A stretch of DNA of 35,579 nt from an uncultured Acidobacteriota bacterium (lineage in GTDB: Bacteria; Acidobacteriota; Vicinamibacteria; Fen-336). Made by a program: the position numbers and the translations under genes. Under the pieces are notes generated by a model, which saw nothing but the letters and a program-made list of their open reading frames with translations, did no database searches and was not told the origin of the DNA. This document shows, one piece after another, positions 14,576 through 22,782 of this stretch (its first letter is position 1; the number at the start of each line of letters is the position of its first letter). The stretch is taken from assembly GCA_902826455.1 (NCBI GenBank), contig CADEEV010000045.1, positions 1-35,579 of the forward strand. The letters are read 5' to 3'.

Positions 14576-14605
14576 AGGATATTCGGGTTAGAAGCGGACT
14601 GTCAA
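14576..14605 (-). promoter_or_regulatory. Sigma70-type promoter of rpsA
   Basis: On the minus strand a perfect -35 TTGACA (14605-14600) and a -10 TATCCT (14581-14576) are 18 bp apart. The -35 overlaps the TGA stop of hemD. Predicted initiation near 14569 gives a leader of about 80 nt before the rpsA ATG, long enough for autoregulation by S1, though I cannot show a fold. Confidence 0.7.
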
Positions 14606-15381
14606 CCCAGGGGCGCGAAAAACGCGAGGACCTGCGCGAGCATTCCGGCGTCGTTCGACGGACGCGCCTCGAATTTCACGTCGAGGCTCGACGCCTCGGC
14701 CCGGGCCCGCGTCACCGGCCCGATCACGCCGGCCGGAAACGCGACCGCCCTCGATCCCGCGGCGGCCACGAAGCCGGCCACGGCGGACGGCGAGGCGAAG
14801 AGCGCTATGTCCAGGCCCTCGTTGAGGATGGAGGCGAGCCGTGGCGCGAGGTCCGGGGGCGTCACGGTGCGATAGGCCGTGACCACGTCGACGCTCGCCC
14901 CGGCATCCCGGAGGCCGGCCGGCAGCACGTCGGCGGCCCGGTCCGACGCGGGGATCAGGAACCTCTCCCCCGTCACGCCCCGCACCCGGAACGCCTCGAG
15001 GAGCCCCTCCGCGCGGAACTGCGCGGCCGGGGCGAGGCTCACGTCGCCGCCGGCGAAGGCCGCGCGGAACGCGTCGCTGGTCGCGGCGCCGACGCTCGCG
15101 ACGGCCGTCCCGCGGCCCACGGCGGCGTCCGAGAGCCCGAGCGCCACGAAGCGCGCGCGCACGGCCTCGACCGCGTTGGCGCTCGTGAACACGAGCCAGT
15201 CGTACGCGTGAAGACGGCCGAGCGCGGCGTCGAGAGGGCCCGTGTCCTCCGGGGCGCGGATCTCGAGCAGCGGCAGCTCGACGACGTCGGCGCCGGCGGC
15301 AGCGAGACCTTTCGTCAGCCCCTCGGACTGCTCCGGCCGGCGCGTCACGAGGATGCGGCGGCCGTGGAGCGGCCCGCTCAC
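14602..15381 (-). CDS. hemD: Uroporphyrinogen-III synthase
   Basis: HemD cyclises hydroxymethylbilane with inversion of ring D to give uroporphyrinogen III. The 259-residue product shows the weakly conserved family pattern: RRILVTRRPEQSEGLTKGLAAAGADVVELPLLEI, YDWLVFTSANAVEAV, ASVGAATSDAF, FLIPASDRAADVLPAGL, ALFASPSAVAGFV and a final VIGPVTRARAE. The start is GTG at 15381, overlapping the hemC TGA (GTGA). Sequence conservation is low in this family, but position directly after hemC and the motif order make the call firm. Its 3' end contains the -35 of the rpsA promoter. Confidence 0.93.
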   Translation of the reverse strand: MSGPLHGRRILVTRRPEQSEGLTKGLAAAGADVVELPLLEIRAPEDTGPLDAALGRLHAYDWLVFTSANAVEAVRARFVALGLSDAAVGRGTAVASVGAATSDAFRAAFAGGDVSLAPAAQFRAEGLLEAFRVRGVTGERFLIPASDRAADVLPAGLRDAGASVDVVTAYRTVTPPDLAPRLASILNEGLDIALFASPSAVAGFVAAAGSRAVAFPAGVIGPVTRARAEASSLDVKFEARPSNDAGMLAQVLAFFAPLG

Positions 15382-16274
15382 GTCGCGAGCAGCGCGCCGG
15401 CGCCGCGCCGCAACAGCTCGTCGGCGACGTTGCGGCCCAGGGCCTCGGGCGGGCCGCCGCGGCCCTCGGCCCGCACCACGACGCGGCCGTCGACGCGCGC
15501 GACGAGGGCCCGCAGCCACAGGGCGCCGCCTTCCGCCTCGGCAAAGGCGCCGAGCGGCACGTTGCACCCGCCGCCGAGCCCGGCGAGCAGCGCGCGCTCC
15601 GCGGTCACCGCGGCGGTCGTAGGGCCGTCGGCGAGCGGTGCCACGGCCTCGGCGATCGCCGCATCTCCGTCGCGGCACTCCAGGGCGATGGCACCCTGGC
15701 CCGGCGCCGGCAGCACGACCGACGGCTCGAGGCGCTCGGTGATCTCGGCCGCCCGGCCCAGGCGCGTGATGCCGGCGGTCGCGATCACGATCGCGTCGAA
15801 GGCCCCTTCCTGGAGCCGCCGCAGGCGCGTGTCCACGTTGCCGCGCAGGTCCGCGATCGCGAGGTCGGGGCGCGCGGCGAGGAGCTGGGCCCGCCGCCGC
15901 AGGCTGGTCGTGCCGACGCGCGCTCCGGGAGGCAGCCCCGCGAGCGACGCGCCGGAAGCCGAGACGAGAGCGTCCCGCGGGTCGGCGCGCGGCAGCATCG
16001 CGCAGAGCCGCAGGCCTTCGGGAAGCTCCACCGGCACGTCCTTCAGGCTGTGCACCGCCAGGTCCACCTCGCCCGCCAGGAGCGCTTCCTCGATCTCCTT
16101 GAGGAAGGCGCCCTTGCCGCCCACCGGCTCGAGCCGGCCCTGGGTGCGGTCGCCCGTCGTCGTGATCACCTCGATCGACACCCCGTGGCCGCGACTCTCG
16201 AGCGCGGCCTTCACGTGCTCCGCCTGCCACAAGGCGAGGGCGCTGCCGCGGCTCCCGATCCGCAAGTTCGTCAC
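15378..16274 (-). CDS. hemC: Porphobilinogen deaminase (hydroxymethylbilane synthase)
   Basis: HemC polymerises four porphobilinogens to hydroxymethylbilane on a covalently bound dipyrromethane cofactor. The 298 residues have LRIGSRGSALALWQAEHV, VDLAVHSLKDVPVELPEGL, GTTSLRRRAQLLAARPDL, LRGNVDTRLRRL and GQGAIALECR. The cofactor-anchoring Cys237 is in GGGCNVPLGAFAE. The start is GTG at 16274-16272, where the conserved N-terminus begins. There is no Shine-Dalgarno; instead a -10 TAGAAT ends 6 nt before the GTG, so the mRNA is probably leaderless. It pairs with hemD by a GTGA overlap. hemC is separated from hemA by a plus-strand gene pair. Confidence 0.96.
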   Translation of the reverse strand: MTNLRIGSRGSALALWQAEHVKAALESRGHGVSIEVITTTGDRTQGRLEPVGGKGAFLKEIEEALLAGEVDLAVHSLKDVPVELPEGLRLCAMLPRADPRDALVSASGASLAGLPPGARVGTTSLRRRAQLLAARPDLAIADLRGNVDTRLRRLQEGAFDAIVIATAGITRLGRAAEITERLEPSVVLPAPGQGAIALECRDGDAAIAEAVAPLADGPTTAAVTAERALLAGLGGGCNVPLGAFAEAEGGALWLRALVARVDGRVVVRAEGRGGPPEALGRNVADELLRRGAGALLAT

Positions 16275-16275
16275 G

Positions 16276-16306
16276 CGGCGATTCTACGTCCGCGATAGAA
16301 TCGCCG
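16276..16306. promoter_or_regulatory. Symmetric divergent promoter with 11-bp inverted repeat
   Basis: CGGCGATTCTA (16276-16286) and its exact reverse complement TAGAATCGCCG (16296-16306) flank a 9-bp spacer. Each arm carries a TAGAAT -10 hexamer directed outward: minus strand 16286-16281 to hemC, plus strand 16296-16301 to the SPFH gene. hemC's GTG begins 6 nt after its -10, while the plus transcript has a leader of about 20 nt with GGAGG before ATG 16329. The symmetry also makes the site a possible operator. No convincing -35 was found on either strand. Confidence 0.6.
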
Positions 16307-16328
16307 TCTTTCGGCACGGAGGTGGACG

Positions 16329-17369
16329 ATGGGTCTCATGGACTTCATCAAGGGCGAGCTGCTCGAGGTCATCGCGTGGACGGACGATTCGCGCGACACG
16401 CTGTCCTTCCGTTTCGAGGACGAGGACAAGGCGATCAAGAACGGCGCCCAGCTCATCGTGCGCGAGTCGCAGGTCGCCCAGTTCGTGTACCTGGGCGAGT
16501 TCGGCGACAGCTTCGGGCCCGGCAAGCACACCCTCACGACCGACAACATCCCGGTGCTCACGAAGCTGAAGTCGTGGAAGTTCGGCTTCGACTCGCCGTT
16601 CAAGGCCGACGTGTACTACCTCAACACGCGGCTCTTCACGGGCAACAAGTGGGGCACCGCGAACCCGATCATGCTGCGCGACCCCGACTTCGCCATCGTG
16701 CGGGCCCGCGCCTACGGCACCTACGACTTCCGCATCGTGAACCCGAAGCTGTTCCTCAAGGAGGTCGCGGGCTCCGACCACAACTTCCGGCTCGACGAGT
16801 TCGACCAGACCATGCGCTCGCGCATCGTGAGCGTGTTCTCCGAGGCGCTTGCTGCGGCGAAGGTGCCGCTCCTCGACGTCGCGACGCGTTACGCCGAGCT
16901 GGGCGAGGCGCTCCTGCCCGTGATCAACCCCGCGGTCGGCGCGAAGTACGGCCTCGAGATCGCGTCCTTCGTGATCGAGAACGTGTCGGTGCCGCCCGAG
17001 GTCGAGGCGGCCATCGACAAGCGCTCGAGCATGGCGGCCGTCGGCAACCTCAACGACTACGTGAAGTTCCAGATGGCCCAGGGCATGGAGAAGGGCGGCG
17101 CCACGGGCGGCATGGCCGCCGAGATGGCCGTCGGTTTCCAGATCGCCCAGCAGATGATGCAGCAGCAGGGCGGCGTCCTCGCCGGCAAGGGCCCGGCCGC
17201 GCCGGGCGCGACGCCCGAGCTGCTCGGCGTCGCCGAGGCCGCGAAGGCCCTGGGCGTCTCCGAGCCCGACGTGCTCGCGATCCTCGAGTCGGGCGAGCTC
17301 CCGGGCAAGAAGATCGGCAGCACCTGGCGCATCAGGAAGTCGGCCCTCGACAGCTACCTCGAGAGCTGA
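16329..17369 (+). CDS. SPFH-domain protein (YdjI/virion-core-like) with C-terminal excisionase-type HTH
   Basis: A 346-residue protein. Residues about 1-240 match the soluble SPFH group related to B. subtilis YdjI: MDFIKGELLEVIAWTDDS, LIVRESQVAQFVYLGEFGDSFGPGKHTL, NIPVLTKL, FKADVYYLNTRLFTGNKWGT and YGTYDFRIVNPKLF. A Gly/Met/Gln-rich linker (GGMAAEMAVGFQIAQQMMQQ) follows. Residues about 297-345 form an excisionase/MerR-like helix-turn-helix: LLGVAEAAKALGVSEPDVLA, then SGELPGKKIGSTWRIRKSAL. SPFH proteins assemble on membranes and are often tied to envelope stress; the HTH suggests DNA or protein binding in the same chain. The start has GGAGG shortly upstream. The next gene lies in the same frame just after the TGA and encodes a zinc-ribbon membrane protein, a pairing also known for ydjI/ydjG. 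Confidence 0.86.
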   Translation: MGLMDFIKGELLEVIAWTDDSRDTLSFRFEDEDKAIKNGAQLIVRESQVAQFVYLGEFGDSFGPGKHTLTTDNIPVLTKLKSWKFGFDSPFKADVYYLNTRLFTGNKWGTANPIMLRDPDFAIVRARAYGTYDFRIVNPKLFLKEVAGSDHNFRLDEFDQTMRSRIVSVFSEALAAAKVPLLDVATRYAELGEALLPVINPAVGAKYGLEIASFVIENVSVPPEVEAAIDKRSSMAAVGNLNDYVKFQMAQGMEKGGATGGMAAEMAVGFQIAQQMMQQQGGVLAGKGPAAPGATPELLGVAEAAKALGVSEPDVLAILESGELPGKKIGSTWRIRKSALDSYLES

Positions 17370-17372
17370 CCG

Positions 17373-18473
17373 ACGCTCACCGCACTCGAGAAGCACGCCT
17401 GCCCGGCGTGCGGGGCGCAGGCCGAGTGGAACCCCGCGCGCCAGAGCCTCGTGTGCCCGTTCTGCGGCACCGAGTCCCCGTACGCCCTCGACAAGGACAC
17501 GGGCGCCGTCGTCGAGCTCGACCTCGTGAAGGCGTTGCGCGAGCTGCCGGACGAGGCGCGCGGCTGGGACACGGAGCGCCGCAGCGTACAGTGCCAGAGC
17601 TGCAAGGCGGTCTCGGTGTTCGCGCCCGACCGCGTGGGACAGAACTGCGACTTCTGCGGCTCGGCGGCTCTCGTCGACTACACGGAGCTGAAGGCGCCGA
17701 TCCGGCCCCAGAGCCTGCTGCCCTTCAAGGTCAGCGCGTCCCAGGTGCGCGAGAGCATCCGGGGTTTCTGGGCGAGCAAGTGGCTCGCCCCGAACGCGCT
17801 CAGGTCGCGGGCCCTCGTCGACCGGGTCCACGGCCTGTATCTTCCCTACTGGACCTTCGACGCGCAGGCCGTGTGCCCGTGGTGGGGCGACGCGGGCTTC
17901 TACTACTACGAGACCGAGAGCTACACGGACTCGAACGGGCGACGCGCGACACGCCAGGTGCAGCGGACGCGTTGGGAGAGCCGCTCCGGGACGTTCGAGC
18001 ACGTCTTCGACGACGCGCTGGTGCCGGGATCGCGCGGCGTGCCCCACGATCTGCTCGCCCAGGTCGAGCCCTTCCCCACCACGACCGACATGCTCCCCTA
18101 CGACAAGGGCTATCTGGCGGGCTTCGTGGTCGAGCACTACCAGGTCGTGCTGCTCGACGCGGCGCAGGCGGCCGAGGCGGGCATGGTCGCGACGCTGCGG
18201 CGGATGGCCTCCCAGGCGCTCGGCGGCGACACGCAGCGCGACCTGCGCATCGAGCCCGCGTTCTCGGGCCGCACCTTCAAGCACGTGCTGCTCCCGGTGT
18301 GGCTGCTCACCTACGACTACGGCCCGCGCACGTTCCAGGTCGTCGTGAACGGCGTCACGGGCCGCATCGCGGGCCGCTACCCGAAGAGCTTCTGGAAGAT
18401 CTTTTTCCTGGTGGTGGGCGCGCTGTTCGCCCTGCTCGTGATCCTGATCGTGTCGAGCGCGCTCGACCGCTAG
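17373..18473 (+). CDS. TFIIB-type zinc-ribbon membrane protein (YdjG-like), start codon non-standard
   Basis: A protein of about 366 residues resembling YdjG-type partners of SPFH proteins. It begins with a zinc ribbon CPACG...CPFCG, has a second CQSC...CDFCG, then a large beta-rich domain with LYLPYWTFDAQ, an aromatic region (GDAGFYYYETESYTD) and LLPVWLLTYDYGPRTFQVVVNGVTGRIAGRYPKS, and ends with one TM helix (residues about 340-362). It is in the same frame as the SPFH gene, directly after its TGA, and there is no ATG, GTG or TTG before the first CPACG. The first normal codon, GTG 17451, would delete half of the first zinc ribbon. I place the start provisionally at ACG 17373, 7 nt after GAGAG; TGA readthrough or a lost start are alternatives. 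The gene is convergent with hemA: both TAG stops lie in the palindrome TAGCGCTA. Confidence 0.72.
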   Translation, partial: TLTALEKHACPACGAQAEWNPARQSLVCPFCGTESPYALDKDTGAVVELDLVKALRELPDEARGWDTERRSVQCQSCKAVSVFAPDRVGQNCDFCGSAALVDYTELKAPIRPQSLLPFKVSASQVRESIRGFWASKWLAPNALRSRALVDRVHGLYLPYWTFDAQAVCPWWGDAGFYYYETESYTDSNGRRATRQVQRTRWESRSGTFEHVFDDALVPGSRGVPHDLLAQVEPFPTTTDMLPYDKGYLAGFVVEHYQVVLLDAAQAAEAGMVATLRRMASQALGGDTQRDLRIEPAFSGRTFKHVLLPVWLLTYDYGPRTFQVVVNGVTGRIAGRYPKSFWKIFFLVVGALFALLVILIVSSALDR

Positions 18474-18475
18474 CG

Positions 18476-19726
18476 CTACAGGCCGAACAGCCGGCGGACG
18501 AGTTCCACGGCCTCGGCGGCGCGGCCGCTCTTCGACATTTCCTTGAGCTCGGTCGTGGGCGTGTGGAGCAGCTTGTTGACCATCGCCGTCGTGGCGAGCT
18601 CGAGGGCCGCTTCCTGCTCGGGGCTCAAGGGCCCGAGTTTCTTGCGGGCCCGGTCGAGCTCCTCGCGCCGGATCTTCTCGGCCCGATGGCGCAGCGCCGT
18701 GACCATCGGCGTCACGTCGAGGGACTTCTGCCAGGAGAGGAAGTCGCGGACCTCCTCGTCGATGATCGCCTCGGCGGCCGCGGCCTCCTTCTGGCGCTCG
18801 CGCAGGTTGGCGTCGGCCACGGACTTGAGGTCGTCGAGGTCGTAGAGGAACACGCCCTCGAGCTTGCGCACCGAGGCCTCGATGTCGCGCGGCACCGCGA
18901 TGTCGATGAGGAAGAGCGGCCGCCGACGCGACTGGCGCGCCGCCTCGACGTCCTCCTTGCGGATCACGAGACCCGTCGCGCCGGTGCCGCTGATCACGAT
19001 GTCGGCCTTCGCGAGCTCGCCGCGCAGGCCCTCGAAGGGAACGGCCCGTCCGCCCAGGGCCGCCGCCAGCTCCTCGGCGCGCTCGAAGGTGCGGCCCCCG
19101 AGCACCGTCGCGAAGGCGCCGTTGCGCACCAGGTGCTTGGCCGCGAGCTCGCTCATCTTGCCGGCGCCCACGATCAGCACGTTGCGGTCCTTGAGCGAGC
19201 CGAAGATCTTGCGGGCCAGCTCGACCGCGACGTAGGAGACCGACACCGCGTTGTGACCGATCGAGGTCTCGGTCCGGGCGCGCTTGGCCGCCGCGAGCGA
19301 CCGGTTGCGCAGCGCGTTCAGGCCGCCGCCCAGGCTCGCCGCTTCCTCGGCCGCCTGGTAGGCGTCCTTGACCTGCCCCAGGATCTGCGGCTCGCCCAGC
19401 ACCAGCGAATCGAGGCTCGCGGCCACGCGGAACGCGTGGCGCACGGCGGCCTCGCCCGAGACCCGGTACAGGAACGGCTCGAGCTCGCCCATCGGCCGGC
19501 CGTGGAAGCTCGCGAAGCACGACGCGACGGCGTCGGCGGGATCGCCTTCCGCGGCTCCCGCGTAGACCTCGACGCGGTTGCAGGTCGAGAGGATCATGGC
19601 CTCGGCGAGGTGCGCCTCGCTCTTGAGACAGGCGAGGGCCTCGGCCATGCGCTCCTTCGGGACGGCGAGCGCCTCGCGGACTTCGAGGGGCGCCGTCTTG
19701 TGGCTGACGCCGACGACGACGATCAT
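18476..19726 (-). CDS. hemA: Glutamyl-tRNA reductase
   Basis: HemA reduces glutamyl-tRNA to glutamate-1-semialdehyde with NADPH, the first committed step of C5-pathway tetrapyrrole synthesis. The 416-residue product starts MIVVVGVSHKTAPLEVRE and has the catalytic Cys49 in ILSTCNRVEVY, LGEPQILGQVKDAY, the NADPH-binding VGAGKMSELAAKHL, SGTGATG, LIDIAVPRDIE and a C-terminal dimerisation helix ending in VNKLLHTPTTELKE. All key residues are present. The ATG is 4 nt after the ccsA stop, so the two are co-transcribed. hemC and hemD would normally follow directly; here they lie beyond an opposite-strand gene pair. Confidence 0.97.
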   Translation of the reverse strand: MIVVVGVSHKTAPLEVREALAVPKERMAEALACLKSEAHLAEAMILSTCNRVEVYAGAAEGDPADAVASCFASFHGRPMGELEPFLYRVSGEAAVRHAFRVAASLDSLVLGEPQILGQVKDAYQAAEEAASLGGGLNALRNRSLAAAKRARTETSIGHNAVSVSYVAVELARKIFGSLKDRNVLIVGAGKMSELAAKHLVRNGAFATVLGGRTFERAEELAAALGGRAVPFEGLRGELAKADIVISGTGATGLVIRKEDVEAARQSRRRPLFLIDIAVPRDIEASVRKLEGVFLYDLDDLKSVADANLRERQKEAAAAEAIIDEEVRDFLSWQKSLDVTPMVTALRHRAEKIRREELDRARKKLGPLSPEQEAALELATTAMVNKLLHTPTTELKEMSKSGRAAEAVELVRRLFGL

Positions 19727-22313: not shown

Positions 22314-22772
22314 TCAGTTCTCGCCGGGCTCTTTGCCGAAGCGGCGCAGCCAACCGTCGACGTCGTCCTCGCGCTCGGGCTTCTCGGCGCCGGCCGAAGC
22401 GCCCTTGCCGACGCGGCGCTCCTCGTTGTTCCACTCGTGAGCGCGCAGCACGCCGGCGCCGAGGGTTCGGCAGTAGGAATAGAGGGCCTTGTCCGAGGTC
22501 ACGACGATCAGCTCGGCGGGCCGCGCCGAGCGCTCCACGAGCTCGCGGATCACCGTGTCGGCGTCCTGTCCGCGCGGGGGCACCCGGAGGCTCACGGGCC
22601 CCAGGTCCTGGGCGGCGAGGCCGTCCCGGAGCGGGGGGCCGTCGAAGACGATCGTGGCCTTCACGTTCTTGGCGCGGCAGAACGCCGCCACCCGGCGCAC
22701 CACCTCGTCCCGGCGGTCGTCGCTGCGCTGCGGCCCTCCCCAGGACCCGAGGAGGTTGTTGCCGTCGACCAG
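22314..22772 (-). CDS. NYN/YacP-like ribonuclease-fold protein, start codon non-standard
   Basis: A PIN-like NYN-domain protein of about 152 residues. The conserved first strand is LVDGNNLLGSWGG with the metal-binding Asp; later come VKATIVFDGPPLRDG, DADTVIRELVERS, LIVVTSDKALYSYCRTLGAGVLRAHEW and an acidic tail (KPEREDDVDGWLRRFG). Family members are RNA-processing or rRNA/tRNA-decay nucleases. The frame has no ATG, GTG or TTG ahead of the VDGNN motif; the first, GTG 22703, would delete the catalytic strand. I place the start provisionally at CTG 22772-22770. The gene overlaps the end of the upstream zf-TFIIB gene in another frame, so a +1 frameshift at its TAG is an alternative. Confidence 0.72.
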   Translation of the reverse strand: MVDGNNLLGSWGGPQRSDDRRDEVVRRVAAFCRAKNVKATIVFDGPPLRDGLAAQDLGPVSLRVPPRGQDADTVIRELVERSARPAELIVVTSDKALYSYCRTLGAGVLRAHEWNNEERRVGKGASAGAEKPEREDDVDGWLRRFGKEPGEN

Positions 22773-22782
22773 GTAGGGCGCT

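Follow-up and report, generated by a model that had tools for sequence, protein, structure and literature searches.

The closest described counterpart of the locus examined here is pspA-ydjGHI of Bacillus subtilis, in which an SPFH gene (YdjI) lies next to a gene for a membrane protein with two zinc ribbons (YdjG). YdjG contains a YpeB-related domain, two zinc ribbons and a transmembrane segment (PMC11237479), and YdjG/H bring both YdjI and PspA to the membrane (PMC8581546). At the level of translation, the closest described systems are termination-reinitiation at ATGA and TGATG overlaps, where the start lies a few nucleotides from the upstream stop (PMC6728339, PMC10666635), and initiation at near-cognate codons. 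Re-initiation works at very short range and is strongly distance dependent (PMC10666635), and non-canonical re-initiation has been described in eukaryotes by Kalstrup and Blunck. In E. coli, initiation at near-cognate codons is weak, CUG giving 0.86% of the level of AUG, and CUG makes up 0.024% of bacterial starts (PMC11497404); switches from ATG to CTG amount to about 3 per 100,000 (PMC5622118).

The window is a stretch of 35,579 nucleotides from an uncultured Acidobacteriota species known from one assembly (71% GC, 108 contigs, 100% completeness, 0.97% contamination). An SPFH (Band 7) protein gene occupies positions 16329–17369 of the forward strand, running from an ATG at 16329 to a TGA at 17367–17369 and encoding 346 residues that end in LDSYLES. 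Pfam analysis revealed a Band_7_1 domain (PF13421, 2.5e-80) and a C-terminal HTH_17 domain at residues 298–346 (PF12728, 5.3e-12), and both the C-terminus and the position of the stop are conserved among relatives. The HTH_17, of the excisionase type (17221–17366), stands where YdjI-like proteins have their C-terminal zinc ribbon. The frame of the SPFH gene is shared by a zinc-ribbon frame that is open from 17370 to 18473 (367 codons, stop at 18471–18473), and alignment, structure model and Pfam matches identify this as a YdjG-like gene for a predicted tail-anchored membrane protein, placed at 17373–18473 of the same strand. The two genes lie between hemA and hemC, which are on the other strand, with nothing intervening. 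At 14602–19726 the pair splits an apparent hemA-hemC-hemD cluster, hemD being unconfirmed by model.

Alignment of the zinc-ribbon protein with its homologs revealed eight invariant cysteines (C11, C14, C29, C32, C75, C78, C93 and C96) and an architecture of two four-cysteine zinc ribbons, a beta-rich middle domain and a C-terminal transmembrane helix. The structure model of the protein gave a pLDDT of 80.7, with the terminal helix at residues 341–366. Pfam zinc-ribbon matches were obtained for 18 of the 21 family members, and one member gave a weak PepSY/YPEB match that can be set beside the YpeB-related domain of YdjG. No clear match to the protein was found in the PDB by sequence search or by fold search; the best fold match had a Z score of 3.4 and paired residues 6–42 with Rpb9-type zinc ribbons, and YpeB/NTF2 folds were absent from the fold-search matches.

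The initial annotation had described an SPFH gene ending in TGA, a zinc-ribbon continuation in the same frame and the absence of any in-frame ATG, GTG or TTG before the first zinc cysteine, all of which was borne out when the sequence was checked. The TGA at 17367 lies 11 codons 5′ of the first cysteine codon (TGC, 17400) and thereby occupies the column in which the zinc-ribbon genes of the relatives most commonly have their ATG. It is followed by CCG at 17370 and by ACG at 17373–17375, the second codon past the stop and the best in-frame candidate start. A Shine-Dalgarno-like GAGAG (17361–17365) precedes this ACG by 7 nt, a spacing that had been given correctly; to this can be added that only three nucleotides (GAG) match the consensus core, making it a weak ribosome-binding site. 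A start-like CTG at 17366–17368 overlaps the stop as CTGA, but its frame is not that of the zinc-ribbon gene. The coding signal of the zinc-ribbon frame gave a codon-usage score of 189, with its onset one codon past the TGA, and conservation of the protein reaches back to LTALEKHAC. Since the frame is conserved up to LTALEK, translation of the N-terminus, through initiation or readthrough, must begin at or 5′ of a codon at about 17376.

The junction was compared with a sample of 80 distinct SPFH/zinc-ribbon junctions taken from whole genomes and contigs. The closest named relatives were mostly Acidobacteriota metagenome assemblies, including Vicinamibacteria, and the nearest was 67% identical; no closer relative was found within the genus, and two matches of comparable length from the same order were 53–54% identical. 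Nearly all relatives have an independent, ordinary start for the zinc-ribbon gene, the modal arrangement being an ATG placed exactly 11 codons upstream of the first cysteine. Four species of one genus, g21 (L006, L008, L022 and L025), have the SPFH stop, one variable codon and then CTG-GCN, with GGAG six bases 5′ of the CTG. A relative from another genus of the same family (L094) has CTG in the aligned column, 5 nt after GGGAGG, while the fifth readable g21 sister (L007) has GTG-GCA in that column and a different frame relative to its SPFH gene. Judged by alignment, the pattern in g21 and L094 is that of a real CTG start codon of the zinc-ribbon gene, and the relatives show putative unusual start codons, mostly CTG, recurring in this bacterial group. 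Long open frames were listed for three relatives (G099, 743; G127, 588; G189, 570); the one that was checked as a candidate natural fusion, L080 from G099, proved to be an out-of-frame GC-rich overlap.

The explanation that best fits these observations, with a probability of roughly 0.55, is that the zinc-ribbon gene is a separate member of a two-gene operon and is translated by re-initiation at a non-canonical codon, most likely the ACG at 17373, to give a tail-anchored product. A ribosome ending the SPFH gene at TGA 17367 would re-initiate at once, 3 nt downstream of the stop and aided by the weak GAGAG, so that translation of the zinc-ribbon gene would be coupled to SPFH termination and the product would begin (M)LTALEKHACPACG.... 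The ACG is as far from its stop as the g21 CTG is from its own, and a gap of 3 nt would suit re-initiation. The lineage probably tolerates CTG starts, and the start of the window's zinc-ribbon gene is probably non-canonical. Initiation at ACG, as first proposed for this junction, is plausible in view of the CTG starts in the same gene of relatives and of the CTG and ATC starts in other genes of this genome, but ACG itself was seen at the start position in no relative, where the codon is ATG, GTG or TTG, or CTG in g21 and L094. Also against it are the poor ribosome-binding site and the likelihood that a near-cognate codon occurs by chance among ten codons. By analogy with YdjG/H, a tail-anchored protein with two cytosolic zinc ribbons would probably recruit its soluble SPFH-HTH partner to the membrane.

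Several other genes of the window genome have non-canonical codons at the start position. QueA (L116:3694, contig C20), whose identity was confirmed by a model aligned from residue 2, has a CTG that is common to two genomes of the same order (L204 and L208, from G014 and G016), while most other relatives have ATG, GTG or TTG. In RecG (L114 near 4402, reverse strand) CTG stands in place of the ATG of several relatives; four other genomes (L287–L290) likewise show CTG there and no ATG, GTG or TTG. A 5′-3′ exonuclease gene (L230:17957) has ATC behind AGGAG in place of the ATG or GTG found in relatives, and infC has ATA behind GGAGG; non-AUG starts of infC (AUU or AUA) are well established. CTGA overlaps in which coding sets in at the CTG, and which have no alternative start nearby, numbered three in 0.84 Mb, the QueA gene providing one example. 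Two further genes were noted separately: one with an NYN_YacP domain (window 22317–22781, reverse strand) has GCG at the conserved start, in contrast to the ATG or GTG of its relatives in the order, and an M20 peptidase gene (L116 at 15762), a possible further ACG candidate, reads ACC ACG CGC where the relative nearest to it in layout shows GTG AGC CGC.

When 1.63 Mb of the window genome were scanned with a crude gene finder based on codon usage, 29 of 1263 coding frames were flagged as startless, lacking any canonical start within 20 codons of where coding sets in. Many of these are likely to be false frames and resemble antisense ones; some, of the kind listed above, are real. A comparison of crude flag rates showed no excess of startless genes, the values being 18/626 here and 10/210 and 9/239 in two other genomes of its class. 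Genome-wide support from upstream ribosome-binding motifs was weak: near coding onsets they were enriched 5.7-fold for ATG but only 1.37-fold for ACG and 1.30-fold for CTG, and such starts are therefore rare even in the window genome. The wider proposal of an Acidobacteriota lineage with relaxed start selection, in which CTG and occasionally ACG or ATC would be regular at overlapping junctions for conserved genes (queA, recG and the zinc-ribbon gene) and N-termini would be systematically misannotated, is put forward as a rather doubtful one.

A strong rival to the ACG start, though in itself judged unlikely, is that a small indel at 17366–17378, either a real mutation or an assembly error, has recently removed a canonical or CTG start. 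The ancestor could have been a TGATG stop/start overlap from which two bases were deleted, or a CTGA overlap that gained one, the latter then reading CTG ACC GAC GTC ACC GCA CTC GAG. Both ancestors give the modal spacing of 11 codons and family-like N-termini, and removal of one base yields LTDVTALEKHAC, to be compared with PDVTAVEKFPC in L027 and the MTDVVAREKHAC start in L043. Spacers in the 80 junctions range from 33 nt upward, and the 33 nt between stop and cysteine in the window is the shortest among relatives of that layout, the next being 35 nt (TAATG, L005); CTGA starts are moreover present in the window genome. Set against this, the zinc-ribbon frame is fully open with no sign of gene decay, it is improbable a priori that a base error should fall in just these 15 nt, given the completeness and low contamination of the assembly, and other genes of the genome also lack canonical starts. 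The rival stays strong for want of a close relative: the plain alternative named in the initial annotation, a lost ATG or base error, is still a candidate, relatives at 67% identity or less being too distant to decide.

Re-initiation at ACG has also to be weighed against readthrough of the TGA, which had been suggested to yield a single polypeptide with SPFH, HTH, zinc-ribbon and transmembrane parts and which is here considered very improbable. The shared frame, the C that follows the TGA and the missing canonical start are all compatible with such a fusion. It had been proposed that readthrough would gain support if relatives kept an in-frame stop without ATG, GTG or TTG, and three g21 species directly (L006, L008 and L022), together with L025, do so up to the conserved start column; however, the CTG behind GGAG is invariant in these species while the codon before it varies, and a CTG start explains this better. 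In the sister L007 the two genes are out of frame, with GTG in place of the CTG, so that no fusion is possible. Among the 80 junctions the SPFH stop may be TGA, TAG or TAA and the frame offsets between the two genes are mixed (34/27/19; chi-square P = 0.12). The SPFH C-terminus ends at the identical place throughout, and no fused open frame was found among the relatives, the one long frame checked (L080) included. Mixed offsets and independent starts indicate separate synthesis of the two proteins throughout the group and speak against readthrough; judged by these junctions, the zinc-ribbon product is a separate protein and not a readthrough fusion. Translation from GTG 17451, although this is the first canonical in-frame start, is scarcely credible, since the product of about 340 residues would lack the first zinc-binding cysteine pair, as had been pointed out, whereas C11 and C14 are invariant, CPACG and the preceding residues are conserved in all close relatives, the codon signal begins directly past the TGA, and conservation back to LTALEKHAC argues that this GTG is not the natural start.

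Gene-prediction programs usually accept no start other than ATG, GTG or TTG, and genes such as the zinc-ribbon gene are consequently truncated or lost; here a call truncated to GTG 17451 would drop one half of a zinc site. Core genes with conserved CTG starts within a single order would also offer a natural system for studying the evolution of start-codon fidelity.

Compared with the known systems, a start at ACG 17373 would resemble the near-cognate starts of infC (AUU/AUA) and the rare CUG starts in using a codon that differs from ATG at a single base, with weak initiation, here coupled to an upstream stop. It would differ from them in that ACG is a candidate only and in belonging to a lineage where several genes repeatedly have CTG at conserved positions. 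As in re-initiation at ATGA and TGATG overlaps, the start would lie a few nucleotides from the upstream stop, but the restart codon in the window is not ATG, GTG or TTG. As in B. subtilis, an SPFH gene is found beside a gene with two zinc ribbons and a C-terminal transmembrane helix, the arrangement of the YdjI/YdjG pair. In the window, however, the SPFH gene comes first and its product has no C-terminal zinc ribbon, ending instead in the HTH_17, while distant Clostridia-type relatives (L064, L066–L069) keep the ribbon. In its predicted domains the window pair resembles YdjI/YdjG; membership of the PspA system is not claimed, because the HTH_17 replaces the zinc ribbon and because pspA and ydjH (TPM) are not adjacent to the pair, whose immediate neighbors are hemC and hemA. 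To the SPFH/zinc-ribbon membrane pair described in the PspA envelope-stress system the operon adds a variant with an HTH tail.
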